Shown one piece after another: positions 15,175 to 35,898 of a stretch of 42,801 nt of DNA (the first letter of the stretch is position 1; every line of letters starts with the position of its first letter). The notes beneath the pieces were generated by a model. That model searched no databases and was not told the origin of the DNA. It worked only from the letters and a program-made list of their open reading frames with translations. A program made the position numbers and the translations under genes. Source of the stretch: Alloalcanivorax gelatiniphagus (GTDB lineage: Bacteria; Pseudomonadota; Gammaproteobacteria; Pseudomonadales; Alcanivoracaceae); the NCBI RefSeq assembly GCF_005938655.1, contig NZ_VCQT01000018.1, positions 1 through 42,801 of the forward strand, written 5' to 3'.

Positions 15175-18100
15175 GTGTTCCCCACAGGCGTGGGGATAAA
15201 CCGGATGCATGGCGTTTGAAACCGACCAATCGGATGTGTTCCCCACAGGCGTGGGGATAAACCGCGAGATTGCCGAAGCTGATGGTGTCCTCAGAGGTGT
15301 TCCCCACAGGCGTGGGGATAAACCGGCCCGGACCGATATTCGGGAGTGCCGATAATGGTGTTCCCCACAGGCGTGGGGATAAACCGCGCCCCCGGTGTAG
15401 GCGTAGGCGGTCTGTTCGGTGTTCCCCACAGGCGTGGGGATAAACCGCTCTGACGCCTGATAGGGTCCGGAATCAGTCGGTGTTCCCCACAGGCGTGGGG
15501 ATAAACCGGCGCACTGAATCGCGTCCATATTGTCGGAGCAGTGTTCCCCACAGGCGTGGGGATAAACCGGCTGATATCGGCACCGGAGCGGTTTGTTCTC
15601 AGTGTTCCCCACAGGCGTGGGGATAAACCGGGGGCATTTACGAAAGGGGAAATTTCCCATTTGTGTTCCCCACAGGCGTGGGGATAAACCGTCATAGAGC
15701 TGGTCGGCGGATAGGGCCGCCCGGTGTTCCCCACAGGCGTGGGGATAAACCGTGGGCCGTCGATATGGGCGAGACGCTGCTGGTGTGTTCCCCACAGGCG
15801 TGGGGATAAACCGGATCAACGACAAACAGGTGTCAACACCGGCAAGTGTTCCCCACAGGCGTGGGGATAAACCGACCGCCAGGACAGGGAGCACCCAAAA
15901 AACGCGGTGTTCCCCACAGGCGTGGGGATAAACCGCGGTTTGCTGTCGATGGTTCCGATGAACGACGGTGTTCCCCACAGGCGTGGGGATAAACCGATTC
16001 CGCCAATGAATGGCGCCGGTCTCGCGGCGTGTTCCCCACAGGCGTGGGGATAAACCGCCGGCGCTTTCGTTGGTTCGTTGGCTGTGGTCGTGTTCCCCAC
16101 AGGCGTGGGGATAAACCGGTCTGGGCGACTGTCAGCAACGCGATCCCGGGGTGTTCCCCACAGGCGTGGGGATAAACCGGCCCTGTAACCGAAAGCATGG
16201 GCGGCGCCCCAGTGTTCCCCACAGGCGTGGGGATAAACCGCGGCGGGCTGGTAATGGCGCTGGTCACTGATAGTGTTCCCCACAGGCGTGGGGATAAACC
16301 GCCGTTCCGTCGGGTCTGACCGCGCTGGAAACGGTGTTCCCCACAGGCGTGGGGATAAACCGAGGTGCAGACGATGAACACCTACATTATCACAGTGTTC
16401 CCCACAGGCGTGGGGATAAACCAGGTGGCGCCCTTGTCATACCCGGATATGGGGCGTGTTCCCCACAGGCGTGGGGATAAACCGGCCGTGGATGTGTTCA
16501 ACATGGATGACAGTTTGTGTTCCCCACAGGCGTGGGGATAAACCGCAGGCGCCCCAGGTGGCGGTGCCGGAGGCTCTGTGTTCCCCACAGGCGTGGGGAT
16601 AAACCGCGGCGCAAGAGTGATGGATGACTATTGCGCGAGTGTTCCCCACAGGCGTGGGGATAAACCGTCCCGGCCCGTGTACTACCGTGGGATCCGTGAG
16701 TGTTCCCCACAGGCGTGGGGATAAACCGACGGTTGATCATGGCACGCGGAGCCGTTCGGGGTGTTCCCCACAGGCGTGGGGATAAACCGTTGAGCGAGCG
16801 GAACGCTCGCAGGATTCCGAGGTGTTCCCCACAGGCGTGGGGATAAACCGGTTTCATGTTGGGGCGGCGCGTTTGCGCAGTTGTGTTCCCCACAGGCGTG
16901 GGGATAAACCGACGATGGCCAAGAGGCCGTAGGCCGGCCAGCTGTGTTCCCCACAGGCGTGGGGATAAACCGGCTGAAGAGGTTGCTATCGGCGACATCC
17001 CGGAGTGTTCCCCACAGGCGTGGGGATAAACCGTCTTCAAGCGGCTGCCGGAGAAGCGGAAATTTGTGTTCCCCACAGGCGTGGGGATAAACCGTCAATG
17101 CCGATCATCTTATTACGTTAACGCATGTGTTCCCCACAGGCGTGGGGATAAACCGGGTCTGCCTTACATGGAAATGCGGCTGTACCGGTGTTCCCCACAG
17201 GCGTGGGGATAAACCGGGGCAGCCGGAGAAGCTGGCCGGCACAGGGCAGTGTTCCCCACAGGCGTGGGGATAAACCGTCGAGAAGGCCGCCAGCGAGCCC
17301 AAGATGCGCGTGTTCCCCACAGGCGTGGGGATAAACCGTTCCAGACCGAACGCTATGGCGATCAGCCGTAGTGTTCCCCACAGGCGTGGGGATAAACCGC
17401 GCCGGGGATTTCCCCGGACACCTCTGATTATGTGTTCCCCACAGGCGTGGGGATAAACCGAAAACGGAAAAGGCCACCAAGGATTAACAATGGTGTTCCC
17501 CACAGGCGTGGGGATAAACCGCTCGCGGGGACAAACATCCAGATGCTGCCGGAGTGTTCCCCACAGGCGTGGGGATAAACCGTTGCCCATATCATTCCTC
17601 CCTGCCGCTCTGGGGTGTTCCCCACAGGCGTGGGGATAAACCGCTGTTCGGCCAGCGGAACAGTGCGCAATACGTGTGTTCCCCACAGGCGTGGGGATAA
17701 ACCGCCTGACCAGCAATGGCCGGGCCTGTACAACCGCGTGTTCCCCACAGGCGTGGGGATAAACCGTAAATGCACCCAACGGGCAATTCTGAAAAATAGT
17801 GTTCCCCACAGGCGTGGGGATAAACCGGCCTGGAGGTGGCCCGGGCGCAAACCGGGGAAGTGTTCCCCACAGGCGTGGGGATAAACCGGGGTTGTGTTTG
17901 AGTGGGAATGCAGCTGCGAGGTGTTCCCCACAGGCGTGGGGATAAACCGCACACAACGGCGGATCGAACGGCGCCGCGACCGTGTTCCCCACAGGCGTGG
18001 GGATAAACCGGCCAAGTACGCGCCACTGGAAAAGATCAACGAGTGTTCCCCACAGGCGTGGGGATAAACCGTGCACGACTGCCTGCAATGTTTCTCCGAA

Positions 18101-18742
18101 GATGTGTTCCCCACAGGCGTGGGGATAAACCGGCTGCCCTACATGGAAATGCGACTTTACCGGGGTGTTCCCCACAGGCGTGGGGATAAACCGGTCGTTC
18201 GTCAGGATCACCATGGCCTTGCAACGTGTTCCCCACAGGCGTGGGGATAAACCGGCTCCGATCCTACCGGCGAATAGGGCCGATCCGTGTTCCCCACAGG
18301 CGTGGGGATAAACCGAGAAAAGTGCCGGCTGGCATTCTCTGAGCACGGTGTTCCCCACAGGCGTGGGGATAAACCGTTCTTTGGGAAGAATTTGGAGGTT
18401 ACGTCAATGTGTTCCCCACAGGCGTGGGGATAAACCGCTATCGAGTGAATCTCGTCATACCCAAGACCAGTGTTCCCCACAGGCGTGGGGATAAACCGTA
18501 GGCCTAGAAATCGCAGACCTGACCGGATTAGTGTTCCCCACAGGCGTGGGGATAAACCGTGGCGGTGGCGGGCGAAGTCCATACCGAACACGTGTTCCCC
18601 ACAGGCGTGGGGATAAACCGTGCCCATGCGTTGATCGAATCGGCGCTGGTTTGTGTTCCCCACAGGCGTGGGGATAAACCGGCGGGTGGAACCGGGCAAC
18701 GCCCAGTTCACCGGTGTTCCCCACAGGCGCGGAGACAAACTC
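15175..18742 (+). CRISPR. CRISPR array 1, type I-E, 59 repeats / 58 spacers
   Basis: A 29-bp repeat starting GTGTTCCCCAC and ending ATAAACCG, with hairpin stem CCCCAC/GTGGGG and tetraloop AGGC. Units are 61 bp throughout except one 33-nt spacer (17705-17737). Cas6e would cut after base 21 and leave the 8-nt handle AUAAACCG, identical to E. coli. The repeat at 16395 ends in A instead of G. The last repeat (18714-18742) is degenerate in its 3' half (GCGGAGACAAACTC), which together with the AT-rich leader on the left fixes orientation as left to right. Spacers 33 (17156) and 49 (18133) are near-duplicates. Spacer 18 (16241) nearly matches a spacer in array 3. Long minus-strand reading frames over the array are artefacts. 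Confidence 0.99.
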
Positions 18743-18827
18743 CGGATGCTGTAAAACATCCATGGATATACATTAAGGATGAATTTCGGATTATCTAGAT
18801 TGCTCTTTGTTGGGTGGAGGAATGTTC

Positions 18828-19082: not shown

Positions 19083-19174
19083 TCGTGGCGTATGCCCCTT
19101 TGGCAAGCAGTTGGCGGTCGATCATTGCCGTTCCCCGGATGGCTTGCATTAACCCGGGGAAGTTGAGATATTAC

Positions 19175-19188: not shown

Positions 19189-19205
19189 CTGTGTGGGAGC
19201 TACCC

Positions 19206-20055: not shown

Positions 20056-20150
20056 AGTGCCCCTGTTTTTTTGGTTGTTTTTTGATCTTTTTGTTTGGTG
20101 GAAAATGGGACTCCGATTTTCCTCTTTTTAATCAATAAGATACATTTAGA
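20056..20150 (+). promoter_or_regulatory. CRISPR leader 2
   Basis: It carries the same blocks as leader 1: a T-rich start, TTGGT at 20095, GGTGGAAAAT at 20097-20106 (54 bp before the repeat), an IHF-like AATCAATAAGATA, and the end TTTAGA. The 189 bp between vapC and this leader contain nothing recognisable. Confidence 0.85.
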
Positions 20151-20484
20151 GTGTTCCCCACAGGTGTGGGGATAAACCGTTCTGGCTATGGGGGATCGGA
20201 TCACTCGGTACGTGTTCCCCACAGGTGTGGGGATAAACCGCGTTCGGAGTCTGGTTTTCCGGGGCCATTGGCGTGTTCCCCACAGGTGTGGGGATAAACC
20301 GCTCACGTTGGACCACCCGCTGGTTATTTCCAGGTGTTCCCCACAGGTGTGGGGATAAACCGCACACTTAATCGCGGTCTCGTCATCCATCACAGTGTTC
20401 CCCACAGGTGTGGGGATAAACCGCTCCGCGCCCTGTGGGATGAACGGCTGGCGGCGTGTTCCCCACAGGTGTGGGGATAAACCG
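20151..20484 (+). CRISPR. CRISPR array 2, leader-proximal part (repeats 1-6)
   Basis: Six repeats of 29 bp (GTGTTCCCCAC start, AGGT tetraloop, ATAAACCG handle) with five intact 32-bp spacers, continuing into the first 28 bp of spacer 6 (20485-20512). An IS256-family element interrupts spacer 6. Four bases after the element (CGAT, 21906-21909) complete it, and the array resumes at 21910. This part keeps its leader, so it should still be transcribed and still gain spacers. Confidence 0.98.
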
Positions 20485-20503
20485 CGGCTGGAGTCAGGCA
20501 TCA

Positions 20504-20512
20504 AAATGGTGG
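20504..20512 (+). repeat. target-site duplication, left copy
   Basis: AAATGGTGG, repeated exactly at 21897-21905 directly outside the other end of the IS. Nine bp is normal for IS256-family insertion. Deleting one copy plus the IS leaves a perfect 32-bp spacer. Confidence 0.95.
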
Positions 20513-21896
20513 GAGTTATTGTCAAATCTGGTGTATGACCATCAGGCAGCGTTCCTGTCAGATTGATCTTCCACCTCTATTCCATCCTGAAACTGTACGT
20601 TGTCCACGACCAGCTTCAGTTGGTCGAACCCCTTGATCCGCTTCCAGCGCTTTTGGGCGGACTGGAGCAGTTTGAACACCATCGATAACGTGGTGTCGCG
20701 GTTGCCGCAAGAGCGGCTTCGCTTGGTTCTCAGTCGCACTGTGGCGAAGGTGGATTCAATCGGATTGGTCGTCCGTAAGTGAATCCAGTGAATCGCCGGA
20801 AAATCGTAGAAGGCCAGCAGCTCGTCACGATCCTTCTCCAGGTTTTCCATGGCCTTTGGGTACTTGTCCCGAAACCGCCTCAAGGTGCTATCGAACGCCT
20901 TGTGAGCGCTGTCTCTTGTCTCGGCCAGATAGATCTCGTGCAGTGCCGATTTCACCTTTGGCTGCACGGACTTGGGCAGTTTGTCCAGCACGTTAGCCGT
21001 CTTGTGGACCCAGCACCGCTGGTGCCGGGTGTCCGGAAACACCTTGCTCAGGGCCTTCCAGAAGCCCAGTGCGCCGTCGCCAACAGCTAGCTTGGGCGAA
21101 GGCTCCAGGCCTCTTTCCCGTATGTCCGTGAGCAGCTCTCGCCAGCTGGCTTCGGACTCCCGGTGGCCGTCCTCGACCGCAACCAGCTCCTTGTGGCCGT
21201 GCTCGGTCACGCCAATGATCACCAGCAGGCAGAGCCGGTCATCCAGGCGGACGTTGCTGTACACGCCGTCCGCCCACCAGTAGACGTAACGCTTCTGGCT
21301 CAGGTCTCGTCGCTGCCAGTCCTTGTGCTCATCAAGCCACTTCGCCTTGAGCCGAGACACTGTGTTGGCCGACAGGCCATTGGCTTGTTCACCAACCAGC
21401 GCACTCAGGGCCTCCTGGAAATCACCGGAGGAAACACCTCGCAGGTAGAGCCAGGGAATCAGTTCCTCCAGGCTCCGGGCGCGCTTCAGGTAGGGTGGCA
21501 GCAGGTGGCTGTTGAAGCGAATGCCAGAGCCACTGCGGTCCCGGACCTTGGGAACCTGGACTTCTACGTCGCCGACGCCTGTCTGAACAGCGCGTTTGGG
21601 AAGGTGCCCATTGCGCACCACAGCACGGCGGCCATCCGGCGTCTTGACGTCCGCGTACTGCTTCAACAGGCTCTCCAGCTCCGTCTCAACGGCCTGTGCG
21701 ATCAGATCCCGGGCACCCTGCCGGATCAACTCGTGCAACGGGTCGTTGCTGGCTACCTCTGGTTGTGAAAGAGCATGCAGGTTAGACTTGGGCATGGCGT
21801 ATCATTCCTCTGTTGGTTGTGATCTTGGCGGAGATCAACCAACAGGATACGCCACCCCTTCAGCCTGCTTCCATACACCAGAAATCACCATAACTC
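20513..21896. mobile_element. IS256-family insertion sequence, 1384 bp
   Basis: The terminal inverted repeats are 25 bp: 20513-20537 (GAGTTATTGTC...GGTGTATG) and 21872-21896 read in reverse (GAGTTATGGTG...GGTGTATG), with 4 mismatches. One full-length transposase gene is on the minus strand. The 9-bp duplication flanks the ends exactly. Both ends and the transposase are intact, so the element is probably young and mobile. It lies in spacer 6 of CRISPR array 2. Confidence 0.96.
20542..21795 (-). CDS. IS256-family transposase
   Basis: A 417-residue mutator-type DDE transposase that moves its own element. Family marks are the N-terminal HELIRQGARDLIAQAVETEL, RAVQTGVGDVEVQVPKVRDR, YWWADGVYSNVR (first Asp), LLVIIGVTEHGHKELVAVED, VGDGALGFWKAL (second Asp), HQRCWVHKTANVLDKLP, and TNPIESTFATVRLRTKRSR (Glu). 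Nothing appears truncated. It is transcribed against the CRISPR array, towards leader 2. Transcripts running past the gene would be antisense to the six newest repeats and the leader. Confidence 0.97.
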   Translation of the reverse strand: MPKSNLHALSQPEVASNDPLHELIRQGARDLIAQAVETELESLLKQYADVKTPDGRRAVVRNGHLPKRAVQTGVGDVEVQVPKVRDRSGSGIRFNSHLLPPYLKRARSLEELIPWLYLRGVSSGDFQEALSALVGEQANGLSANTVSRLKAKWLDEHKDWQRRDLSQKRYVYWWADGVYSNVRLDDRLCLLVIIGVTEHGHKELVAVEDGHRESEASWRELLTDIRERGLEPSPKLAVGDGALGFWKALSKVFPDTRHQRCWVHKTANVLDKLPKSVQPKVKSALHEIYLAETRDSAHKAFDSTLRRFRDKYPKAMENLEKDRDELLAFYDFPAIHWIHLRTTNPIESTFATVRLRTKRSRSCGNRDTTLSMVFKLLQSAQKRWKRIKGFDQLKLVVDNVQFQDGIEVEDQSDRNAA

Positions 21897-21905
21897 AAAT
21901 GGTGG
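21897..21905 (+). repeat. target-site duplication, right copy
   Basis: AAATGGTGG, identical to 20504-20512. Bases 21906-21909 (CGAT) are the last four bases of the interrupted spacer. Confidence 0.95.
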
Positions 21906-21909
21906 CGAT

Positions 21910-23953
21910 GTGTTCCCCACAGGTGTGGGGATAAACCGGCGCCGTCGTACAGCAATCCGCACCTGCCGGAGTGTTCCCCACAGGTGTGGGGATAAACCGG
22001 TGCGGGCTACCCAGGTATCACTGGCCGACGCGTGTTCCCCACAGGTGTGGGGATAAACCGAAAATCTACGAGGACTACGAGAGCGCCTACGGGTGTTCCC
22101 CACAGGTGTGGGGATAAACCGCGGGAGATGGAGCGGTACTTTATCGGCGACTACGTGTTCCCCACAGGTGTGGGGATAAACCGCAGGCTGACAACCTCGA
22201 ACAGGCGTTCCACGCGTGTTCCCCACAGGTGTGGGGATAAACCGGTAACGACATTTTGTCGCAGCATTGGCGGCACGTGTTCCCCACAGGTGTGGGGATA
22301 AACCGATCTTCCAGCGTGTCCGCGAGTCCGAGGAAGAGTGTTCCCCACAGGTGTGGGGATAAACCGCAGGTGCTTGCCGGCGTGGCCCTGCTGATCCGGT
22401 GTTCCCCACAGGTGTGGGGATAAACCGCGACCATGTGGACCCGCTTCCCGGTGACCGGGGTGTTCCCCACAGGTGTGGGGATAAACCGCACCCCCATATC
22501 GCCACGGACAGCCGGGAGGTGTGTTCCCCACAGGTGTGGGGATAAACCGGGCTCCTGGGTCTGGGCGCTGGGTAGAGGGGCGTGTTCCCCACAGGTGTGG
22601 GGATAAACCGGCGTTCGCTGAGGTGCGCGTCACCGAGTGCCGGTGTTCCCCACAGGTGTGGGGATAAACCGGTGCCGGCGGCGACGACACCTGGGGATTC
22701 CCTGTGTTCCCCACAGGTGTGGGGATAAACCGCACTCCTTTATGCTGCTCACTCATCGCCCAGGGTGTTCCCCACAGGTGTGGGGATAAACCGGACGTCG
22801 ATCAGTTCTCCCTCGTTCATCAGCAGTGTTCCCCACAGGTGTGGGGATAAACCGCGTCAACTGGCATGATCTACCGTGTGCAGCACGTGTTCCCCACAGG
22901 TGTGGGGATAAACCGGGCTGTTTCCATATGGTGGGCGAGATCAACGCGTGTTCCCCACAGGTGTGGGGATAAACCGTGCTTTCCTCGCCCCACCCAATGG
23001 CGCGGCCCGTGTTCCCCACAGGTGTGGGGATAAACCGTAGGGGTGCTGCGGGTAGCCGTAGTCCAGCCAGTGTTCCCCACAGGTGTGGGGATAAACCGCC
23101 TACGCCAGAGACGCCAACAGCCGGGAGATAGTGTTCCCCACAGGTGTGGGGATAAACCGGGATTCTTGCAGGCGATCAAAGCGGGGATCCTGTGTTCCCC
23201 ACAGGTGTGGGGATAAACCGGGTGCGGTAATGGCCGACGAGATCGGCTTGGAGTGTTCCCCACAGGTGTGGGGATAAACCGCTGAACCTGAACGGCTACG
23301 ACGACTGGTACCTGTGTTCCCCACAGGTGTGGGGATAAACCGTGTTCCCGCGTTTCCGTCTGGTGCCGGGCCAGGTGTTCCCCACAGGTGTGGGGATAAA
23401 CCGCTGGGAGGCTGGATCCTGATGGGCACACTCACGTGTTCCCCACAGGTGTGGGGATAAACCGCTGCCGCTCGAACACTTCAGCGCGGCGGAGTTGTGT
23501 TCCCCACAGGTGTGGGGATAAACCGCCGTCGGCGTTCGCGGCGCCGGACGACGTGGAGTGTTCCCCACAGGTGTGGGGATAAACCGGAAAGGATTTGTTG
23601 GGTGACCGCGCGGAACTGGTGTTCCCCACAGGTGTGGGGATAAACCGGAAATGGCTAGACGGATTAACCCGGAACACTGGTGTTCCCCACAGGTGTGGGG
23701 ATAAACCGCTGCTGGCCGAGTGGCTGGGCACGTTCGAGCGGTGTTCCCCACAGGTGTGGGGATAAACCGCAGATGGAGCGCATCTCCGGCCCGCTGTCCA
23801 ACGTGTTCCCCACAGGTGTGGGGATAAACCGAGATCGGCGCGGTTATCCACGCCCTTGCCGGCGTGTTCCCCACAGGCGTGGGGATAAGCCGCTCATTGG
23901 CCAGCAGAAGAGGACAGCCTGGCGGTGTTCCCCACGGCCGTGTGGTGGCCACC
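21910..23953 (+). CRISPR. CRISPR array 2, leader-distal part (repeats 7-40)
   Basis: Thirty-four repeats with the AGGT tetraloop, including two 33-nt spacers (22122-22154 and 23770-23802). The second-last repeat (23864-23892) carries the array 1 loop AGGC and an altered handle (ATAAGCCG). The last (23925-23953) keeps only the first 11 bases. The IS separates these repeats from leader 2, so spacers 7-39 depend on read-through or on another promoter. Counting both parts, array 2 has 40 repeats and 39 spacers. Confidence 0.98.
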
Positions 23954-24386: not shown

Positions 24387-27077
24387 GTGATCGGGATGCA
24401 CGCTACTGATTGGCCGGCTTGTTTTTTGTATTGGGGTAAAGCTCGGCCGGCTTCCGCTGAGGGCGCGGCCTACCATCTGCTGCCGTTCCATAGTCTGGAC
24501 GTGGCGGCCGTGGGTTGGCACCTGTTGGCGCCGGAGCGTCCCTTGGCCCGGCTGCTGGCCCGGCGCCTTGATCTTCCTCCACCGATATTACGCTCTCTGC
24601 TGGTGTTCTTCCTGGGGCTGCACGACTTGGGCAAGTTCGCCCGTGCTTTCCAGGGGCTGGTTTCCATGGGGTCTCTGGTCCCGCCGTTAAGGTCCTGCCA
24701 ATACACCGAACGCCACGATCGTCTGGGCGCCTTGCTATGGTCCGAGGCGGGCATTCCCTGGCTGAGGGATGGCACCCTGGGCTTTCCAAAACAATCCTTC
24801 GACGGTGATCAGCGCAACACCCTGAGCGCCACGCTGGGCGTCTTGACCAGCGTGGTGTTCGGGCACCATGGCAAGCCGGTGGCGCGGAATGGCTTGCGAA
24901 TGCAGTCTTTCTTCGGTGCGGATCAGCACGCCGATGACCTTCAGGCGGCGAGGGCCTTTGTGGCCGAATGGGCGGCTCTGATGGCGGTGCCCTGGCCGGT
25001 GGAGCAATTAACCTCGGCGCAATGGGCCGCATCGCTGCGTGGGTTGAGTTGGACGCTCGCTGGCTGGGCGGTCCTCAGCGATTGGCTCGGTTCCAATCAG
25101 ACCTATTTCGAATACGTTGACGAACCCGACCCCTTGAAAGCGTACTGGCCGGCGGCGCTTGAAAAGGCGGAACAGGCTCTGTCCGCCACCGGGTTCGGTC
25201 ACACGCTGGAGCCCAGGCCGTATACCGGCCTGAGCACCTGGTTCAAGGGTAAGGCGGTAACGCCCACGCCCCTTCAAAGCGCGGTGGAAGCGCTTGAGCT
25301 TCAGGCCGGGCCACAGCTTTTTATTCTTGAAGACGTGACCGGGGCCGGCAAAACCGAAGCCGCCTGTATTCTGGCTCAGCGGCTGCTGTATGCCGGGGAG
25401 GCGGAAGGGCTGTATTTCGCTTTGCCCACCATGGCCACTTCCAACGCCATGTACTCCCGCCTGGGCGCCATGCATCGTCGCTTTTACACGGAGGAGGGCG
25501 CGCCATCCTTCGTGCTGGCCCACGGGGCCCGCGACTTGAATGAGGACTTCGCCCGTTCGCTGGTCGGTGACCAGCCCGGCGACCGGAATTATCGCGCCGA
25601 TGAAGCCAGCGCGTCGGCGCAGTGCAACCATTGGCTGGCGGACTCGCGCAAGAAAGCGCTGTTGGCGGACGTGGCGGTGGGCACCATCGACCAGGCACTG
25701 ATGGGCGTGCTGCCGTTTCGTCACCAATCGCTGCGGCTGTATGGGTTGGCGCGCAAGGTGCTTATCGTCGATGAAGTCCATGCCTACGACGTTTATACCC
25801 GGTCGCTTCTGGTGGCCTTGCTGGCTCACCACGCCAGACAGGGCGGCAGCGCCATCTTGCTGACCGCGACTCTGCCTCTGGGCCAGCGCCAGGCGCTGGT
25901 AAATGCCTGGCGCCAGGCGTTGAACGCCGCCCCGATATCGTTGCAAGAGACGGAGTTTCCTTTGCTAACCCGCACCGGCGGCGATCCGTCCGTTCTGGAA
26001 CAGCCGGTGCAAGCGAGACCGGCAAGCCGCCGATCCGTGGCGGTGGATTGGCTTGAGGATGAAGATCAGGCGGTGGAGACACTGCTCAATGCCGTATCCG
26101 AGGGGCGGTCCGTGGCCTGGGTACGGAACACGGTGGATGACGCCATCCGGGCTTATCAAACGGTACGGGACCGTCACCCCGAGCCGGATCGCTGCGTCCT
26201 GTTCCACAGCCGTTTCGCCATGGCGGACCGCCAGGAAATTGAGTCCAGGGTGCTGTCGGCGCTTGGCAAGGACTCGGAACCGCAGGCGCGCAGGGGCCAG
26301 GTGCTGATCGCCACTCAGGTCTTCCAGGAGAGCCTGGACTGCGATGTGGATGTGATGATCAGCGACCTGGCGCCGGTGGATTTGCTGATACAGCGGGCCG
26401 GCCGCCTGCAGCGCCATGACCGTGGTGAGCGCCCGCTGCCACGCCTCTGGGTGCTGGCGCCGCCATGGGATGAGCGGCCCGGCGTCAGCTGGCTGCGGGA
26501 CGCCTTGCCAGGCACCTCCTTCGTGTACCCCGACGTGGCGATAAGCTGGCTGACTCAGAAAGTGCTCCGCGAGCGCGGCGGCATCCATCTGCCCGATGAC
26601 GCCCGTGTGTTACTGGAGGGTGTCTACGGCGTATCCGAAGAAACCCTGCCCGAGGGGCTGCGCGACGTGCACCTCCAGCAGGAGGGCGAGGATCAGGGCA
26701 GGATCTCCATGGCGCGCTACAACCTGTTGGACCTGGCCGCCGGTTACGTGGGCGATGACCAACCCTGGCTGGACGACCACCAGGAAATCGGCACCCGGCT
26801 CAGCGACGAGCCCACCGTGAATGTGGTGCTACTGAAAAGGGAGGCCGAAGGCGGGATCGTGTTATGGGCTCAAGGCGAGCGCCATGCCGCCATGCTCAGC
26901 CAGCTTCGCCTGCGCGAAAGCCAGGCACGCAAGCTGCCGGAGCTGGCTGGGGCCGATCTGGCCGCCTGGGAAGAATTGCAGGGCCGGTACAAAGCACTGA
27001 AATACACCCGACCCTGGCTGCCCGAGGCGGACGCGGCGGTACGCTACGATCCGGCGCTCGGGTGTTTGTTGGGGTAG
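24387..27077 (+). CDS. cas3: Cas3 helicase-nuclease, type I-E
   Basis: Nuclease-helicase recruited by Cascade to unwind and shred target DNA; 896 residues. The HD nuclease domain at the N-terminus has H35, the H79-D80 pair (FFLGLHDLGKF), H160-H161 (FGHHGKP) and SDWLGSN near 232. The superfamily 2 helicase has Walker A TGAGKTEA (K322), DEVH at 462-465, LLTATLP (~492), FHSRFAMADR, and motif VI QRAGRLQRH. Every key residue is present. The start is GTG 24387 after AAAAGGGA; ATG 24396, three codons in, is an alternative. It is the first gene of the cas operon, 38 bp before cas8e. Confidence 0.97.
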   Translation: MIGMHATDWPACFLYWGKARPASAEGAAYHLLPFHSLDVAAVGWHLLAPERPLARLLARRLDLPPPILRSLLVFFLGLHDLGKFARAFQGLVSMGSLVPPLRSCQYTERHDRLGALLWSEAGIPWLRDGTLGFPKQSFDGDQRNTLSATLGVLTSVVFGHHGKPVARNGLRMQSFFGADQHADDLQAARAFVAEWAALMAVPWPVEQLTSAQWAASLRGLSWTLAGWAVLSDWLGSNQTYFEYVDEPDPLKAYWPAALEKAEQALSATGFGHTLEPRPYTGLSTWFKGKAVTPTPLQSAVEALELQAGPQLFILEDVTGAGKTEAACILAQRLLYAGEAEGLYFALPTMATSNAMYSRLGAMHRRFYTEEGAPSFVLAHGARDLNEDFARSLVGDQPGDRNYRADEASASAQCNHWLADSRKKALLADVAVGTIDQALMGVLPFRHQSLRLYGLARKVLIVDEVHAYDVYTRSLLVALLAHHARQGGSAILLTATLPLGQRQALVNAWRQALNAAPISLQETEFPLLTRTGGDPSVLEQPVQARPASRRSVAVDWLEDEDQAVETLLNAVSEGRSVAWVRNTVDDAIRAYQTVRDRHPEPDRCVLFHSRFAMADRQEIESRVLSALGKDSEPQARRGQVLIATQVFQESLDCDVDVMISDLAPVDLLIQRAGRLQRHDRGERPLPRLWVLAPPWDERPGVSWLRDALPGTSFVYPDVAISWLTQKVLRERGGIHLPDDARVLLEGVYGVSEETLPEGLRDVHLQQEGEDQGRISMARYNLLDLAAGYVGDDQPWLDDHQEIGTRLSDEPTVNVVLLKREAEGGIVLWAQGERHAAMLSQLRLRESQARKLPELAGADLAAWEELQGRYKALKYTRPWLPEADAAVRYDPALGCLLG

Positions 27078-27115: not shown

Positions 27116-28801
27116 ATGAACTTGCTAAAGGAAGACTGGCTGCCGTTCAGGACGCGAAATGGTCAAACGCGATACGCACCACCTACGGCGATATCCGATC
27201 CGGACATCGTCGATCTGGGCCTGCCGCGTGCTGACTTCCAGGGCGCGGCCTACCAATGGCTGATTGGCCTGCTGCAGACCGCCTTGCCCCCCAAACACCA
27301 CGTTGATTGGTTGGAAGGTCTGACACAACCGCCGGATCAGAAAGCGCTGGAGGAGGCTTTTGCCCCTTTTCTGCAGGCCTTTGAATTGGACGGCGATGGC
27401 CCGCGTTTTATGCAGGATCTGGACCCGCTGGACGACGCCAAGCCCTCGCCGGTGGCCGGGTTGCTGATCGACGCGCCGGGTGCCAACGGCATCAAGAACA
27501 ATACCGACTTCTTCGTGAAGCGGGGTGGTACCGAGGTGATGTGCCCGGATTGCGCGGCCATGGCCTTGTTCACCATGCAGATCAATGCGCCGTCCGGCGG
27601 CGCTGGTTACCGCGTCGGCCTGCGGGGTGGCGGCCCCCTGACCACGCTGGTTCTTCCCGAGGCGGGCGACGCCAGTCTTTGGCAGCGGCTGTGGCTGAAC
27701 GTGATGTCCGGGTCGGTGTTCGACCGTGATGGGCTGGCCTTTGCGGCGCCCTCGGCGGAGGATGCCACTCTATTCCCTTGGGTGGCGCCCACGCGGGAAA
27801 GCAAAGCCAAGAACACCGAGGTATTCCCGGAGCACATGCATCCGTTGCATCCGTATTGGGCGATGCCGAGGCGCTTTCGCCTGATTGTGGAAAACCAGCC
27901 CTGCCGCTGCGATCTGTGTGGCCGTGAGGCGCCGCAAAGCGTGCGCGAGGTAAAGGCGAAGAATTACGGCGCCAACTATGCCGGGCCCTGGCTGCACCCG
28001 CTCACCCCCTATCGCACGGACCCGAAGAAACCCCAGGAGCCGCCGTTGTCCAGCAAGGGCCAGCCCGGGGGCATCGGTTACCGCAACTGGTCTTATCTGG
28101 TGCTGCCGGATCCGACCAATACCGGTGCGCTGCCGGCGGCGGTGGTCCGTGATTTTCTCGACGCCAAATATCAGACCAGTACGAATGAAAGGGCCTGGGG
28201 AGAGGACGTGGAAGCGCTTCTAAGGCGGCCCCGGCTGTGGGTGTTCGGTTACGACATGGACAACATGAAAGCCCGCTGCTGGTACGGCACGGAAATGCCG
28301 TTGGTGGTACTGCCGGAGGCCCTCCAGGACGTCTTCCGCGAGGCGGTGCAGCATTTCTCCGACCTCACCCGTCAGGTGGTCTGGTACACGCGCACCCAGA
28401 TCAAAAACGCCTGGTTCGAGCGCCCCGGCGATGCCAAGGGCGACACCTCCTACCTGGAAGCGCAGCTTTATGAGAACACCGAGGGCGCTTTCTTCCAGGC
28501 GCTGGAGAGCATCAAGGCAGTGTTGATCGAGCACGGTGAAACAGCCGACCTGAGCGCGCCCGCCGACGCCTGGTTCCGGGCCCTGCGCGCCGCCTCGCTG
28601 GCACTGTTCGAAGACCAGGTGCTCACCGCCGCTCAGGAGGCGCTCAATTGGCCGCGCGTGGTGTCGGCAAGGAGCCGCCTGCTGGCTTTCCTGAGCGGGC
28701 AGGGCAAGGGCGCCAAACCGATTACGCAGTTCGCCCGCCAATACCATGTTCCTCTGACGCGGAGCGAACGCGACAACCCTGAGCGGAAGGAAACGGCATG
28801 A
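27116..28801 (+). CDS. cas8e: Cas8e (Cse1/CasA), Cascade large subunit
   Basis: Recognises the PAM and starts R-loop formation within Cascade, then recruits Cas3; 561 residues. The N-terminus MNLLKEDWLPFRTRNG is typical. PGANGIKNNTDFFVKRG (121-138) corresponds to the PAM-reading L1 loop. A zinc site is formed by C143-x2-C146 and C265-x2-C268. NAPSGGAGYRVGLRGGGPLT is the strongest family block. The gene ends in an ATGA overlap with cse2. Confidence 0.97.
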   Translation: MNLLKEDWLPFRTRNGQTRYAPPTAISDPDIVDLGLPRADFQGAAYQWLIGLLQTALPPKHHVDWLEGLTQPPDQKALEEAFAPFLQAFELDGDGPRFMQDLDPLDDAKPSPVAGLLIDAPGANGIKNNTDFFVKRGGTEVMCPDCAAMALFTMQINAPSGGAGYRVGLRGGGPLTTLVLPEAGDASLWQRLWLNVMSGSVFDRDGLAFAAPSAEDATLFPWVAPTRESKAKNTEVFPEHMHPLHPYWAMPRRFRLIVENQPCRCDLCGREAPQSVREVKAKNYGANYAGPWLHPLTPYRTDPKKPQEPPLSSKGQPGGIGYRNWSYLVLPDPTNTGALPAAVVRDFLDAKYQTSTNERAWGEDVEALLRRPRLWVFGYDMDNMKARCWYGTEMPLVVLPEALQDVFREAVQHFSDLTRQVVWYTRTQIKNAWFERPGDAKGDTSYLEAQLYENTEGAFFQALESIKAVLIEHGETADLSAPADAWFRALRAASLALFEDQVLTAAQEALNWPRVVSARSRLLAFLSGQGKGAKPITQFARQYHVPLTRSERDNPERKETA

Positions 28802-29457
28802 GCGATACGGAGCTTGAAAACGCACAGAAGAAAGACGCGCGGATTGAGCGCTGTCACGTTCTCTCCGGCCACGAAGCATGGGCGGTGCGTGACTGGTGGC
28901 AGCGGCTGACCCTGTCCCCCGAAATGCTCAAGAAACTCGGTTCCCGTCCAGGCTGGTCAAAAGGTGTGCGCGCCGAATTACGCCGCTGCGACCGCCCGGA
29001 AGCCGCGCTGCTCACCGAGGGCTTTCGGCATCTCTGGGATGGGCTGGGCCGTGACGAAATCGCAAAGGATGCCCTATACGTCTGGGCCGGGGTCGCCATG
29101 GTCCTGGCGGAACTAAAGGGCGAGCAGGCTGGCGTCAGCTTAGCGACCAAAGCGGGTAAAGCCAAAGGTGATGCCAAGAAACAAGGTGATAGCAAGCAAC
29201 CACGCATGAGCGAATTGCGCTTTCAGCAACTGATGGAATGCCATTCATTCGAAGAACTGCTGATGCGGCTCCGGCGGGCATTGGCGCTGGTGGATAAAGA
29301 GGGCGTCAGCGCGGTGTCCCTGGCCGATGACATTCTTCAATGGTGGAAAGAAAACGAGAGCCCCTGGCGCCCCGAGCGGCCCACGCAGGGGGTGGCGTTC
29401 CGCTGGGCCAACGACTATTTCCGTCAGGTGGCGGGTTACCGCTCGAACAACGACTGA
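28798..29457 (+). CDS. cse2: Cse2 (CasB, Cas11e), Cascade small subunit
   Basis: Small helical subunit, two copies per Cascade, which stabilises the crRNA and displaced strand. At 219 residues it is longer than the ~160 of E. coli. Much of the excess is a Lys-rich hydrophilic insert at about 117-136 (KAGKAKGDAKKQGDSKQPR) between the two helical halves. Family marks are WWQRLTLSPEMLKKLG and RGYR-like basic surface residues, and the final LADDILQWW...FRWANDYF. The start codon overlaps the cas8e stop codon. Confidence 0.93.
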   Translation: MSDTELENAQKKDARIERCHVLSGHEAWAVRDWWQRLTLSPEMLKKLGSRPGWSKGVRAELRRCDRPEAALLTEGFRHLWDGLGRDEIAKDALYVWAGVAMVLAELKGEQAGVSLATKAGKAKGDAKKQGDSKQPRMSELRFQQLMECHSFEELLMRLRRALALVDKEGVSAVSLADDILQWWKENESPWRPERPTQGVAFRWANDYFRQVAGYRSNND

Positions 29458-29485: not shown

Positions 29486-30553
29486 ATGACTCATTTTATT
29501 CAAGTGCATCTGCTGACGTCCTACCCGCCGGCCAACCTCAACCGGGATGACCTGGGGCGCCCGAAGACGGCGATGATGGGGGGCAGAAAGCGGCTGCGGG
29601 TTTCCTCGCAAAGCCTCAAGCGTACCTGGCGTACTTCCGCGCTGTTTGAGGAGGCGCTGGGGCGGCATTGCGGTACGCGCACCAAGAAAGTGGGTTTGAT
29701 CGCTGTGGAGGCGCTTCTCGCCCAGGGCGTTGAAGAGAAGAAAGCCAATGAATGGGCGCTGGAAATCGCCAAAGTGTTCGGGGATGTGGAAAAAGGCAAG
29801 CTGGAGACCAGCCAGCTCGTGCATGTCGGTCCGGAGGAACTTGCGGCGGTAAAGGCATTGGCGACCACGCTTGCCGAAGAGAAGCGCGCTCCAGAAAAAT
29901 CGGAATTGGACGCCTTGCGTCATCATACCAGCGCCGTGGACGTGGCCTTGTTTGGTCGTATGCTGGCGGCGTCACCGGCTTTCAACGTGGATGCTTCCTG
30001 CCAGGTGGCGCACGCCATCACCGTGCACGCCGCCGAAGTCGAGGACGACTATTTCACCGCCGTGGACGACCTGAATACCGGTGAGGAGCACCGTGGCGCC
30101 GCTCATGTTGGTGATGCCGGCTTTGGCGCGGGGTTGTTTTACTCCTATGTCTGCATCGATCGCCATCTGCTCGAGGAAAACCTGGATGGGGATCGGGAAC
30201 TGGCGGACCGCGCCATTGCCGCTCTGCTGGAAGCCGCCGTACGCACTTCCCCCAAAGGCAAGCAGAACAGCTTTGGTTCCCGCGCCCACGCCAGCTACGT
30301 GCTGGTGGAAGCCGGTGATCAGCAGCCCCGCTCCCTGTCGGTGTCCTTCCTGAAGCCGGTGAGCGGTGACAATCAGGCGCTGGACGCCATTCAGCGCCTC
30401 GAACGCCAGGTGAGTGCTTTCGACGGTGCCTACGGCGCCGGCGCCGACCGCCGCTTCGTACTGTCCGCCGAGCCGGACTACCCGGGCGCGCCGGAGGGCA
30501 TGAAGTCCGGTGACCTCGGTTCGCTGATCGAGTTTCTGAAAGCGGATCGCTAG
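29486..30553 (+). CDS. cas7e: Cas7e (Cse4/CasC), Cascade backbone
   Basis: RAMP-fold protein, six copies of which form the crRNA-binding backbone of Cascade; 355 residues. Diagnostic stretches are FIQVHLLTSYPPANLNRDDL, RLRVSSQSLKRTWRTS, the thumb region with ALFGRMLA, and KGKQNSFGSRAHASYVLVE. It starts 28 bp after cse2. There are 8 bp between its stop and the cas5e start. Confidence 0.97.
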   Translation: MTHFIQVHLLTSYPPANLNRDDLGRPKTAMMGGRKRLRVSSQSLKRTWRTSALFEEALGRHCGTRTKKVGLIAVEALLAQGVEEKKANEWALEIAKVFGDVEKGKLETSQLVHVGPEELAAVKALATTLAEEKRAPEKSELDALRHHTSAVDVALFGRMLAASPAFNVDASCQVAHAITVHAAEVEDDYFTAVDDLNTGEEHRGAAHVGDAGFGAGLFYSYVCIDRHLLEENLDGDRELADRAIAALLEAAVRTSPKGKQNSFGSRAHASYVLVEAGDQQPRSLSVSFLKPVSGDNQALDAIQRLERQVSAFDGAYGAGADRRFVLSAEPDYPGAPEGMKSGDLGSLIEFLKADR

Positions 30554-30561: not shown

Positions 30562-31305
30562 ATGAGCCAGTATCTTGTGTTCCGCCTGTATGCGCCGCTG
30601 GCCAGCTGGGGCGAAGCGGCGGTGGGCGAGACGCGTCCCTCGGGTACCTGCCCGGGCCGTGGCGCCTTGCTGGGCCTGCTGGGCGCCGCCCTTGGGCTGC
30701 GCCGTGACGACGCGGAGGGGCAGGCAGCTTTGTTTGGCGGCTTTCGCGTGGCGGTGAAGCAATATCGTGCCGGTACCTTGCTGAGCGATTACCACACTGC
30801 CCAGGTGCCCGCCTCACAATCGAGAGTCCGTTATCGCACTCGCCGTGACGAACTCAACGCGCCTCAAAAGGTGATTCATACCATTCTCTCCAGCCGCCAG
30901 TATCGCTGCGACGGGCTGTGGACGGTGGCGGTACGGGCGACTCCGGCGGCGCGGCAGGACCTGGCGGTTCTCCGTGAGGCCCTGTTCAAACCCGTGTTTC
31001 CCCTGTACCTCGGCCGCCGGGCCTGCCCGCTGGCGGCGCCATTGGCGCCGGAGGTGATCGAGCGTGAGACCTTGAAGGCGGCCCTTGATCACGAGTTCGA
31101 GCCATTGATGTCCGGCCAGCAGAGCTGGCTACGGCCCGACGCTGCCTGCCTCTATGTGTGGGAGGGGACGGCCACCGACCTGGACGGTGACGACCGGCAC
31201 GTCGAAAGCAACGATGTGTGGGATGACCCGCTCAACCGCGACCGCTGGCAGTTCGGCCCGCGCAAGGCATTTCGGCGATACCAATACGCCCGGGAGGTGG
31301 CTTGA
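30562..31305 (+). CDS. cas5e: Cas5e (CasD), Cascade 5'-handle-binding subunit
   Basis: RAMP protein, 247 residues, that holds the crRNA 5' handle and caps the Cas7 backbone. The N-terminus (YLVFRLYAPLASWGEAAVGE) and the glycine-rich [18 protein letters not shown] are typical. PLYLGRRACPLAAPL near 150 is another family block. GGGGG is just before the ATG. Its stop overlaps the cas6e start by one base (TGATG). Confidence 0.96.
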   Translation: MSQYLVFRLYAPLASWGEAAVGETRPSGTCPGRGALLGLLGAALGLRRDDAEGQAALFGGFRVAVKQYRAGTLLSDYHTAQVPASQSRVRYRTRRDELNAPQKVIHTILSSRQYRCDGLWTVAVRATPAARQDLAVLREALFKPVFPLYLGRRACPLAAPLAPEVIERETLKAALDHEFEPLMSGQQSWLRPDAACLYVWEGTATDLDGDDRHVESNDVWDDPLNRDRWQFGPRKAFRRYQYAREVA

Positions 31306-32003
31306 TGCATCTCTCTCGCGTTCGTGTTGATCTCAATGGCCTTGGCCGCAATGAGCTGTTCGCGGTCATGGGCGGTGAGCCTTACGGCACCCACCAACTG
31401 CTCTGGCGATTGTTTCCCGATTACAGCGGCCCGCGGCCTTTTCTTTTCCGCCAGGAAATCGAGGACGGCGCCGACGGCGAAGGGCGCTGCAAGGGGTTAC
31501 CGTTGTTTTATCTGCTTTCCGAACAAACCCCGGTGGCGGTGCCCGGTCTGTTGGCGGTGGAAAGCAAACCGTTCGCGCCACGCCTGGACGCGGGGGAGAC
31601 CCTGGCGTTTCGATTACGCGCCAACCCCACCGTGGCGCGCCGGGTCGACGGCCAGAAGCACTCCGTTCGCAGCGATGTTCTGATGCATGCCAAAGCGGCG
31701 TTCGCACCGGATCAGCGCGCCAGCCAGGAATGCAAGGACGCCATGGACGCCGCCGCGCGGCAGTGGTTGGCCGGGCAGGGCGAAAAGAATGGCTTCGTCC
31801 TCCGGGCGGAGCCGGAGGTCAGCGGCTATCGCCAACACAGCCTGGGGCGCAGAAGGCAGGGTAAGCCGATTCAGTTCTCCGGCGTGGATTACAGCGGCAC
31901 GCTGGAGGTGACCGATGCACAGGCCTTCATGGCGTCGTTGGCGCAGGGCCTGGGCCGTTCCAAGGCGTTCGGCTTCGGCATGATGATGATACGGCGTGCC
32001 TGA
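31305..32003 (+). CDS. cas6e: Cas6e (CasE) crRNA endoribonuclease
   Basis: Metal-independent RNase that cuts pre-crRNA at the base of the repeat hairpin and stays bound to the 3' stem. It has 232 residues from ATG 31305. The catalytic His is in EPYGTHQLLWRLFPD (H30), and the C-terminal G-rich loop QGLGRSKAFGFGMMM is intact. The start is taken at the TGATG overlap with cas5e rather than the TTG one codon upstream. It must process three hairpins that differ only in their tetraloop, since the stems of all three arrays are the same. Confidence 0.96.
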   Translation: MHLSRVRVDLNGLGRNELFAVMGGEPYGTHQLLWRLFPDYSGPRPFLFRQEIEDGADGEGRCKGLPLFYLLSEQTPVAVPGLLAVESKPFAPRLDAGETLAFRLRANPTVARRVDGQKHSVRSDVLMHAKAAFAPDQRASQECKDAMDAAARQWLAGQGEKNGFVLRAEPEVSGYRQHSLGRRRQGKPIQFSGVDYSGTLEVTDAQAFMASLAQGLGRSKAFGFGMMMIRRA

Positions 32004-32005
32004 CC

Positions 32006-33240
<1,235 letters not shown>

Positions 33241-33346
33241 AAATTTTTCTATTCCGGTCGGCAAAAATGACTGGAAGAAGGCATATATTGTGGACCGGGT
33301 TGCAGTCCGATCCTATGGTGGTCCCGCCAAAAGGAGGATATTAATA

Positions 33347-34159
33347 ATGAAATGGGCTGTATTTTTTGTTCTGTCTTTTATGATGTTTGGTTGTGGAGGC
33401 GGGGGCTCCGGAGGTGGCGGAGGTTCCGAGTCCCCAGGTAATGGAAATCCGAGCCAGCCGGCGGATCTTGCCGGGCTTTGGCAGGGCGAAGTTAATGGTT
33501 ATAGCTCCTCGCTCTTCATTGATACCGACGGCACCATGACCGGTAGCTGGCTTGATACTGATAATGTCGAATTCTATTCCGTGTATGGCAAAGTGCCCAT
33601 GCGCGCGGAATCATCCGCTGACCTTCTTTTGTGCGAGCATCAGCGTGGGGAAGACGGTCAGCAACGGACGTTCGCGGCCGAAGGCGTTTGCCAGTCTGTC
33701 CAATGGAGCGCCTCGACGGTGGAAGGCCAGACCATACAGGGCTCGCTCGCGGGACAATCGGTTGAGTTCGCCTACGCCGGTGATACCGCCGAGCCGGTTA
33801 CCCCGGTGTCCGGCTGCCGAAACATCAGCACCGAATACATAAGCCAGGGCGACTACTTGTCTTCAGACTCCATGACTCTGAACATTATGTCGGACGGCAC
33901 GGTAACAGGGTCGCGCACGGAAAGAATGGACTATGACGCTCCACAGCCGGGCCCTGTGGTGCAGTGGGACATAGCCGGGGAAGTAGCATCCCACCATATC
34001 GATGGCGTCCAGCGGCTTGAGCTTTTTCTCATGTCCCAAACGGATGACGAGGAGATCATTGACGGCTTGATTTGGGAGGATCTGGTGTATTTTGTGAGCA
34101 CCGATCATGGAAGCCCTTATCTGGTTTATCGTTATGGCGAGCATTCCAGTTGCCTCTGA
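33347..34159 (+). CDS. putative lipoprotein, 270 aa, between cas2 and array 3
   Basis: The start ATG 33347 has a very strong AAGGAGG (33331-33337). A short signal peptide ends in a lipobox-like MMFGC followed by a Gly/Ser-rich linker, so the mature protein would be anchored to the membrane by Cys16. The rest looks beta-rich, with two loosely similar halves, each opening with a phrase like TDGTMTGSW / SDGTVTGSRTE. Cys residues in the later part could form disulfides. No family is recognised and there is no sign of a CRISPR-related function. It stands alone between the cas operon and array 3. Confidence 0.75.
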   Translation: MKWAVFFVLSFMMFGCGGGGSGGGGGSESPGNGNPSQPADLAGLWQGEVNGYSSSLFIDTDGTMTGSWLDTDNVEFYSVYGKVPMRAESSADLLLCEHQRGEDGQQRTFAAEGVCQSVQWSASTVEGQTIQGSLAGQSVEFAYAGDTAEPVTPVSGCRNISTEYISQGDYLSSDSMTLNIMSDGTVTGSRTERMDYDAPQPGPVVQWDIAGEVASHHIDGVQRLELFLMSQTDDEEIIDGLIWEDLVYFVSTDHGSPYLVYRYGEHSSCL

Positions 34160-34298: not shown

Positions 34299-34510
34299 GA
34301 GTCCGCCCTGGTTCTATCCGCAAGGCATAAACCTCAACGCGCCTCGGAACCTTTCCTCGGTCGACGACCGCGCTCCTTCCGGGTGGCTCCGCCGACCCGG
34401 CCAACCTGGCTGGTGTCCCTCGCCCTTGTCATCCAGCACAACCCTGGCCTGACGAAGTGATGGTTTTCTCGTGACGTCGTTTGAGCGGTTTCTGTAGTAC
34501 CTAATCGAAG

Positions 34511-34587
34511 GCTGTTTTTTGATCAACTTGTTCGGTGGAAATTACCGGCCCGGTTTTCTTCTTTAAGATCAATGGGATACATTTAGA
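34511..34587 (+). promoter_or_regulatory. CRISPR leader 3 (diverged)
   Basis: It shares the T-run, GGTGGAAAT box (34534, exactly 54 bp before the repeat), TTTTCTTCTTT and terminal TTTAGA with leaders 1 and 2. It differs at two likely functional sites. The TTGGT motif at -56 is TCGGT here, and the IHF-like site reads GATCAATGGGATA, with two mismatches to consensus instead of one. Confidence 0.82.
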
Positions 34588-35898
34588 GGGTTCCCCACAC
34601 GTGTGGGGATAAACCGTGAATGAAATTGCAGGAAACAGATTGATGGATGGGTTCCCCACACGTGTGGGGATAAACCGGTCATCCAGCATCACGTCCAGCG
34701 CCTCAGCGAGGGTTCCCCACACGTGTGGGGATAAACCGGGTGCTTGTGCTGATTCTTAGGTATTCGGCAGGGGTTCCCCACACGTGTGGGGATAAACCGG
34801 GGCAGGACGAATTGACAGAGGGCGAGGGCGAGGGTTCCCCACACGTGTGGGGATAAACCGGGCCCTCACCTTACGTACATGATGAAAAAGCCGGGTTCCC
34901 CACACGTGTGGGGATAAACCGGCGGCGGGCTGGTAATGGCGCTGGTCACCGACGGGTTCCCCACACGTGTGGGGATAAACCGGAGTGGACGAAGTTCAAG
35001 CCGAAGATGGTGCAGGGTTCCCCACACGTGTGGGGATAAACCGAGCAGAGGTAAAATAGTCGTGGCGCTTGCCACGGGTTCCCCACACGTGTGGGGATAA
35101 ACCGGACGCCACCACCGGTTCTGGTGGTCGTCACAAGGGTTCCCCACACGTGTGGGGATAAACCGGACCGCGGAACGCCCGGCGCCCACCAATTCCAGGG
35201 TTCCCCACACGTGTGGGGATAAACCGGCCCGGTCGGCCTCCGGATGGGCCAACTTGCCGGGTTCCCCACACGTGTGGGGATAAACCTCAGTTGGCGAACA
35301 GGTTCGTGCGTTCGGCGGAGGGTTCCCCACACGTGTGGGGATAAACCGTCGATGTCGGTACCGGCAGATATTGCTCTGGCGGGTTCCCCACACGTGTGGG
35401 GATAAACCGTCGCCGCCGGCATCGACAAGCAGAAGAGGGCCGGGTTCCCCACACGTGTGGGGATAAACCGGACGCAGATAGGCGCGCGCCTCAAGCAAAG
35501 CGGGGTTCCCCACACGTGTGGGGATAAACCGTAGCAGGGCAGCAGACAAAGAACGCGGCGCAGGGGTTCCCCACACGTGTGGGGATAAACCGAGCACGGG
35601 CCGGGTGGACGGCATTGTGGCGACGGGTTCCCCACAGGCGTGGGGATAAACCGAAATCGCCGACCGTGTGACCGCCTACGGGAAGGTGTTCCCCACAGGC
35701 GTGGGGATAAACCGTGGAATTGGCCCAGGCCCAGCTACTCCGCGCACGTGTTCCCCACACGTGTGGGGATAAACCGCCGAGCAGGACCAGGAAGACTTTG
35801 GCCAGCTGGGGTTCCCCACACGTGTGGGGATAAGCCGTTCTTGTCGCCGGTCGCGGTGCTCTGCTCGCCGGGTTCCCCACAGGCGTGGGGATAAACGG
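34588..35898 (+). CRISPR. CRISPR array 3, type I-E, 22 repeats / 21 spacers
   Basis: The 29-bp repeat begins GGGTTCCCCAC, has the tetraloop ACGT (making the central 16 bp a perfect palindrome) and ends ATAAACCG. The repeat at 35259 ends in T. Repeats 1-17 are otherwise uniform. The five leader-distal repeats are mosaic: 35625 (GGG start, AGGC loop), 35686 (identical to array 1 repeats), 35748 (GTG start, ACGT loop), 35809 (GGG start, ACGT loop, AAGCCG end) and 35870 (GGG, AGGC, ending ACGG). One spacer is 33 nt (35715-35747). Spacer 6 (34922) nearly equals spacer 18 of array 1. Confidence 0.99.

Follow-up and report, generated by a model that had tools for sequence, protein, structure and literature searches.

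Three type I-E arrays with distinct repeats share one cas set

The window analysed here is a 42.8-kb contig (42,801 nucleotides) of the marine bacterium Alloalcanivorax gelatiniphagus, which belongs to a 4.2-Mb genome of 50 contigs rated 100% complete. It carries a full type I-E CRISPR (clustered regularly interspaced short palindromic repeats)-Cas operon with three repeat-spacer arrays, two upstream of the cas genes (arrays 1 and 2) and one downstream (array 3), all in identical orientation (Table 1). The nearest named relatives by Cas6e are Alloalcanivorax profundimaris and an Alcanivorax metagenome-assembled genome. The three arrays differ from one another in the tetraloop of the repeat and at repeat position 2. 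We consider it highly probable that this is an ordinary type I-E system, in which each array has copied its own repeat lineage, the shared machinery has filtered the changes, and array 3 carries a recombined tract.

All eight proteins of the cas3-cas8e-cas11-cas7-cas5-cas6e-cas1-cas2 operon score above threshold for one or more I-E or Cas3 NCBIfam models. The Cas6e model found no second cas6e in the whole genome, Cas6 families other than Cas6e lying outside that search, and the general Cas1 model found no second cas1, its one gene being matched in two pieces. Searching the genome with the repeat pattern, at up to 3 mismatches, returned 119 forward matches and 1 reverse match and no further such array. 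The reverse-strand match was rejected, as it comes from the palindrome within one of the array 2 repeats. With one cas6e and one cas1 in a genome rated complete, the sequence-only reading was right that a single cas set serves three arrays. The locus is of the type known from Bombella: one cas set and several arrays, with loops that differ and a stem that does not.

A repeat-by-repeat listing gave 121 repeats, the number proposed earlier, when a badly decayed repeat at 23925-23953 is counted after the 39 repeats of array 2 in 20151-23892. The repeats have the type I-E form of 29 nt with a GC-rich 6-bp stem, a 4-nt loop and a period of ~61 nt; in predicted folds the stem gains a seventh pair at its base. 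Chance is excluded as their source, as no repeat match occurred in any of 100 shuffled sequences against 120 observed. The consensus loops are AGGC in array 1, AGGT in array 2 and ACGT in array 3, and position 2 is T, T and G, as had been read from the letters. The consensus of its own array is matched at positions 1-28 by 113 of the 121 repeats (58/59, 38/40 and 17/22 in arrays 1, 2 and 3), and position 29 is the sole difference in two more, #21 (A) and #110 (T). All non-consensus repeats are leader-distal, namely #59, which ends array 1 with stem and handle decayed; #98 (23864), the oldest intact repeat of array 2, with loop AGGC and AAGCCG; the 23925 repeat; and #116-#120 of array 3. A single handle change is present in each of #98, #119 and #120. 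Alignment of all 121 repeats in search of stem changes showed identical stems in the three consensus repeats, and a changed stem in two repeats, both terminal. Each array is loop-uniform except at its old end, and the predicted uniformity of the leader ends was seen in all three. These uniform leader ends, together with variants that persist in runs, support copying of the leader-proximal repeat; if each new repeat is copied in this way, every array would become its own repeat lineage.

Differences between co-resident arrays gather in the loop and at positions 1-2

Three substitutions in a single genome can decide little on their own. We surveyed the cas6e regions of 63 genomes including the present one, with weak and some contig-end cas6e matches left out. 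A mis-oriented palindromic fragment of genome G429 was dropped from the survey counts and from the pair controls, history test and loop-pair counts described below. Arrays of at least 3 repeats were present in 54 of the 63 genomes; 12 had at least two arrays or array pieces, and in 10 the consensus repeats differed. These 10 genomes hold 28 variable sites, 18 in the loop, 8 at positions 1-2, 1 in the stem and 1 in the handle; the loop and positions 1-2 together account for 26 of the 28, across this genome and nine others. Random placement of the variable sites never reached this figure in 100,000 draws.

Loops also vary most between genomes, and distance-matched between-genome pairs were therefore used as the control. 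When each genome contributed only its most different pair, this control predicted 8.53 of 28 differences outside the loop and positions 1-2, against 2 observed (P ~0.003). For all 16 pairs the prediction outside those six positions was 11.83 of 41 and the observed number 3, a value as low being drawn 22 times in 20,000. Collapsing the stem pairs, which was done for the one-pair-per-genome set only, gave 8.26 of 28 expected and 2 seen, with 19 of 20,000 draws as low. Between genomes, positions 10, 17 and 24 have entropies of 0.90, 0.92 and 1.16, and positions 1 and 2 of 0.78 and 0.95; within genomes, the former varied 0, 1 and 1 times and the latter 5 and 3 times.

The same question was put to the history inside arrays, using 69 arrays or array pieces with 2707 repeats; terminal repeats, arrays of fewer than 6 repeats and repeats with at least 5 differences were left out, and an inherited switch was defined as a change with two or more repeats on each side. 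Un-inherited single-repeat changes (n = 44) were near uniform, with 21 in the stem, 8 in the loop, 9 in the handle, 4 at positions 3-5 and 2 at positions 1-2. The inherited switches (n = 19) comprised 11 in the loop, 2 in the stem, 1 at positions 1-2, 3 at positions 3-5 and 2 in the handle, and the loop was favoured among inherited changes only (Fisher P 0.0035).

Several points weigh against a filter of this kind. Five of the 19 inherited switches stem from array 3 of this window; when array 3 is removed, P is 0.016 for loop versus stem and 0.089 for loop plus positions 1-2 versus the rest. Nor are the between-genome pairs independent, as they have arrays in common. The stem varies in one surveyed genome, G024, by an array of only 4 repeats, and the handle varies in another, G026. 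Finally, the array finder relied on the I-E pattern; detection without any pattern yielded 70 arrays, of which 3 lay beyond the pattern set, none of these being a divergent full-length I-E repeat. The comparison of loops across related genomes proposed earlier came out in two parts, in that the bias to the loop and positions 1-2 recurs and the handle and stem can vary as well.

G026 is one of two sister genomes in the same genus, the other being G023, with Cas6e 87% (G026) and 88% (G023) identical to that of the window and three arrays each. The loop/handle combinations of G026 are AGGC/ATGA, AGGT/ATAA and GGAC/ATGA; arrays of ATAAACCG and ATGAACCG thus co-reside with one Cas6e match, and a fixed stem and handle cannot be kept as a rule. 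The arrays of G023 have the loops GGGC, AGGC with four older GGGT repeats, and AGGC, with handle ATGA. In all three arrays of G023 the terminal or penultimate repeat has ATAA and the younger ones ATGA, a parallel or concerted handle change. At locus L009 of G026 (13062-13090), a terminal repeat combines the compensated stem CCCCGC/GCGGGG with AGGC in an array of CCCCAC/GTGGGG and GGAC. Peptide patterns for wider Cas6e relatives turned up 4 loci, and the 2 distant ones among them (30% and 26%) lacked such an array.

The tail of array 3 is mosaic

Read from old to young and given as position 2/loop, array 3 runs #120 G/AGGC, #119 G/ACGT, #118 T/ACGT, #117 T/AGGC, #116 G/AGGC and then G/ACGT from #115 to #99. 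Repeat #117 equals the array 1 consensus. It stands between reciprocal hybrids, #116 having an array-3 start with an array-1 loop and #118 an array-1 start with an array-3 loop, and such a donor-type repeat between reciprocal hybrids is what we take to mark a recombination tract. Elsewhere, away from the array ends, every repeat is of consensus type at positions 1-28. A tract of ~120 nt with two spacers would have been replaced in array 3 by array-1-type sequence via recombination inside repeats, and crossovers between position 2 and the loop would leave reciprocal hybrid repeats at the tract ends. From its sequence, the tail of array 3 is likely the scar of an exchange with another array.

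A donor for such an exchange was sought and not found. Spacer #117, at 3 mismatches, was found in 0 of 45 other genomes of the family and only at its own place; neither block spacer matches another among 489 spacers of 7 genomes; and the 20-base cores of spacers #116 and #117 had 0 exact IMG/VR matches each, spacer #116 being compared only with these 489 spacers and IMG/VR. The donor may have been lost or may lie outside the sampled genomes.

Within-array rearrangement through recombination between repeats is a known idea in the available part of PMC8047081, and a partial literature search found no published description of hybrid repeats flanking an exchanged tract. In genome G141 (C1:729774-731368) neighbouring repeats alternate between A and G at position 1, another possible mosaic. 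In the related genome G027 (C23:133085-136368) many spacers are duplicated, one occurring 4 times and another 5, which suggests repeated tract duplication.

Leaders and array histories

The last 60 bases of the three leaders were aligned with one another. The blocks GGTGGA and ATCAAT..GATA..TTTAGA are common to all three, and the conserved ATCAAT..GATA part might be a site for integration host factor (IHF), judged against the IHF consensus. Array 2 and the AGGT array of G026 have the same repeat, and their 200-base leaders are 82% identical; by this shared leader and repeat, a variant can travel with its array lineage. In G026 and G023, the arrays downstream of cas6e have leaders 76% alike over 200 bases and different loops (GGAC and AGGC), and judging from such leaders a loop can stay or change while the leader persists. 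Over its last 60 bases, the leader of array 3 is nearest to that of the first, upstream array of G023 (85%). AGGC is the loop of both #98 and #120, the oldest repeats still intact in arrays 2 and 3; this suggests that array 2 started from an AGGC ancestor and drifted, as array 3 probably did.

Alternative origins and the source of constraint

Two other histories have to be weighed for the arrays. The arrays might have arrived separately from other strains, each with its own repeat and leader, rather than diverged in this lineage. In keeping with this, the leader of array 3 is only 29% and 34% identical over 200 bases to those of the downstream arrays of the two sisters, which do resemble each other, and an extra open reading frame (ORF) sits between cas2 and array 3. 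We nevertheless think separate arrival rather unlikely, though conceivable for array 3, since the loop of array 1 is present in the oldest intact repeats of arrays 2 and 3, the leader ends of all three arrays have the same blocks, and both sister genomes likewise have two arrays upstream and one downstream of cas6e. For the tail of array 3, point mutation, stepwise or after acquisition, could be proposed in place of recombination. Old repeats do decay, as the single handle changes of #119, #120 and #98 illustrate, and position 1 also alternates along the arrays of G141. Mutation would, however, have to restore the array-1 alleles jointly at positions 2, 13 and 15 and place #117 between reciprocal hybrids, and a stepwise route takes 8 substitutions at these positions in 5 successive acquisitions, whereas one tract exchange accounts for #116-#118. 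Mutation without recombination therefore seems improbable to us.

In the copying and filtering that we favour, substitutions in the template repeat would survive mainly in the tetraloop and at positions 1-2, and the stem and most of the handle would have to keep fitting the single shared set of Cas1-Cas2, Cas6e and Cascade. The arms of the stem double as the DNA inverted repeat used in integration, so Cas1-Cas2 would predict the same pattern as Cas6e. The sequence-only reading had instead claimed that change was tolerated only where Cas6e does not read the RNA, such that the pattern would report specifically what Cas6e reads and the loop and position 2 would be free because Cas6e does not touch them. 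This is rather doubtful. A stem common to all three consensus repeats agrees with it, and Cas6e is described in the accessible part of PMC5965380 as gripping the stem by the major groove and recognising bases on both its sides. The same part of that source, however, places the handle between Cas5 and Cse1 in assembled Cascade (PMC5965380). In addition, the handle varies in G026 despite one Cas6e, and compensated stem changes between genomes fit either reader. Because the handle lies between Cas5 and Cse1 and the stem arms form the integration inverted repeat, the constraint cannot be assigned to Cas6e, and the claim is not supported. Taken together, the evidence points to filtering of repeat change by the whole of the shared machinery; it does not single out Cas6e, and it cannot say whether Cas6e, Cas1-Cas2 or Cas5/Cas8e is the enforcer. 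Position 2 is not silent in the predicted fold, in which G2 lets GGU pair with the handle ACC (-15.4 versus -12.9 kcal/mol, with an AGGC or ACGT loop alike). We give hardly any credence to a functional loop that marks arrays for different processing or uptake. Each array is loop-uniform apart from its old end, in agreement with such a mark, but copying explains this uniformity, orthologous leaders carry different loops (GGAC and AGGC), and predicted energies are independent of the loop, all T2 repeats with AGGC, AGGT or ACGT being at -12.9 kcal/mol.

A possible loop inversion

Loops of type I-E repeats could conceivably change by inversion, with the 4-nt loop flipping to its reverse complement across the palindromic stem in one event, although we rate this as a long shot. 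A template switch or cruciform would give such multi-base loop changes at once. The 65 loops compared make 1998 differing pairs, of which 59 are related by reverse complementation; column shuffles predict 27.4, and 1 of 5000 shuffles came as high. Plain reverse or plain complement pairs do not occur among these loops, a weak control since such loops would depart from the usual purine-NN-pyrimidine form. In a count of distinct consensus repeats, with family labels only partly filled in, reverse-complement loop pairs are more frequent among kin, making up 1 of 14 pairs from the same genome (G826, AGGC and GCCT), 9 of 113 from the same family and 52 of 1994 others. Perhaps three separate cases underlie these pairs, and the excess would follow just as well from a strand-symmetric sequence preference. 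No published description of loop inversion was found in a partial literature search.

Features of the locus, spacers and neighbouring genes

The sixth spacer of array 2 is interrupted by an IS256-family element flanked by a 9-bp target duplication; without the element, this spacer is exactly 32 nt. As seen from the leader, 34 older repeats of array 2 lie beyond the element, and the insertion may cut them off from the leader promoter.

Table 1. Positions of the arrays, leaders, cas genes and insertion in the window.
Feature	Position	Strand	Remarks
Leader of array 1, last 60 bases	15115..15174	+	aligned with other leaders
Array 1	15175..18742	+	59 repeats, T2/AGGC, last repeat decayed
Leader of array 2, last 60 bases	20091..20150	+	aligned with other leaders
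Array 2	20151..23953	+	40 repeats including a decayed one, T2/AGGT
IS256-family insertion, sixth spacer of array 2	20513..21896	- (transposase)	transposase NF033543, E 7e-99
cas3	24387..27077	+	TIGR01587 and TIGR01596 above cut-off
cas8e (cse1)	27116..28801	+	TIGR02547 above cut-off
cas11 (cse2)	28798..29457	+	TIGR02548 above cut-off
cas7e	29486..30553	+	TIGR01869 above cut-off
cas5e	30562..31305	+	TIGR01868 above cut-off
cas6e	31302..32003	+	TIGR01907, E 8.7e-45; single match in genome
cas1e	32006..32929	+	TIGR03638, E 6.8e-114; single place in genome, match in two pieces
cas2e	32926..33240	+	TIGR01873 above cut-off
Leader of array 3, last 60 bases	34528..34587	+	aligned with other leaders
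Array 3	34588..35898	+	22 repeats, G2/ACGT consensus in 17/22
Mosaic block of array 3	35625..35776	+	#116 G/AGGC hybrid, #117 T/AGGC (array-1 type), #118 T/ACGT hybrid

The arrays were compared with phage sequences, the six leader-side repeats of array 2 (20151-20484) being left out of this search. The spacer after #106 in array 3 (35044-35075) matches the major capsid gene of the Microviridae blackfly microvirus SF02 in 31 of 32 bases, so that a type I-E spacer is directed at a group of small single-stranded DNA phages. AAG precedes this protospacer, in agreement with an AAG protospacer-adjacent motif on one protospacer only. Spacer 47 of array 1 (18011-18042) has a weak match, 90.9% over 33 bases with E 0.09, to an ERF family gene of phage CBW1004C-Prop1, a possible protospacer. 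Three phage records hit by all three array queries matched in several to many pieces, at 67-88% identity over the repeats, and were not taken as protospacers. Spacer 18 of array 1 (16241-16272) and spacer 6 of array 3 (34922-34953) have 27 bases in common, offset by one, and on this likeness arrays 1 and 3 seem to have sampled the same target region; the common core had 0 exact IMG/VR matches. Spacers 33 and 49 of array 1 (17156-17187 and 18133-18164) are 90% alike over 29 bases, as if taken from the same gene of related phages.

Between arrays 1 and 2 (18807-19866), a MazE-like antitoxin ORF is followed by a second one, whose MazE match stays below threshold and which adjoins an ORF with a VapC-type PIN domain. 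A proteasome-fold ORF (PF00227) adjoins array 1 in 10987-15014; the ORFs upstream of it look to us like ATP-grasp, alpha-E and transglutaminase proteins, and we presume a resemblance to an Anbu-type operon. Between cas2 and array 3 (33290-34159) lies an ORF that resembles a lipoprotein on inspection and has no match in Pfam. Here, cas6e and the downstream array stand ~1.26 kb farther apart than they do in either sister genome.

Relation to known systems and significance

The pattern is recurrent and already described, as tetraloop differences between co-resident type I-E arrays have been published for Bombella apis (PMC12282179). According to the available part of that paper, differences there tend toward the loop or the tails, and the loop does not appear constrained to its authors (PMC12282179). 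Bombella apis, as portrayed there, has canonical and orphan arrays, whereas here three arrays lie on one contig, with a change at position 2 and a mosaic tail (PMC12282179). Escherichia and Salmonella likewise have one type I-E cas set linked to two arrays, CRISPR1 and CRISPR2, with decayed terminal repeats, but in the portion of that account available a typical repeat is common to both arrays, while each array has its own here (PMC2886076). Copying of the adjacent repeat at acquisition was inferred in 2010 from stretches of repeat variants in E. coli, in the same portion (PMC2886076).

Across genomes, repeat cluster 2 goes with the Ecoli (I-E) cas subtype, and structured clusters keep their stems through compensatory changes, in the accessible part of Kunin 2007, where 'relaxed conservation of loop residues' is said of cluster 3 (PMC1896005). 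That study, so far as its accessible part goes, compares repeats across genomes, in contrast to the co-resident arrays compared here (PMC1896005). A survey of multiple arrays reports, in its available text, that type I-E loci typically have at least two arrays, with pairs mostly in the same orientation and often on both sides of cas (PMC12814883); as described there, it uses the overall edit distance of consensus repeats, while the present comparison is resolved by repeat position (PMC12814883).

Known biology is thus refined, not overturned. One Cas set with several repeat variants is a ready-made test of the repeat positions that shared machinery tolerates, and repeat variants tag arrays, so that exchange between arrays becomes visible. 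The comparison of un-inherited changes, which are near even along the repeat, with inherited ones, which gather in the loop, offers a straightforward means of telling mutation apart from selection on repeats.

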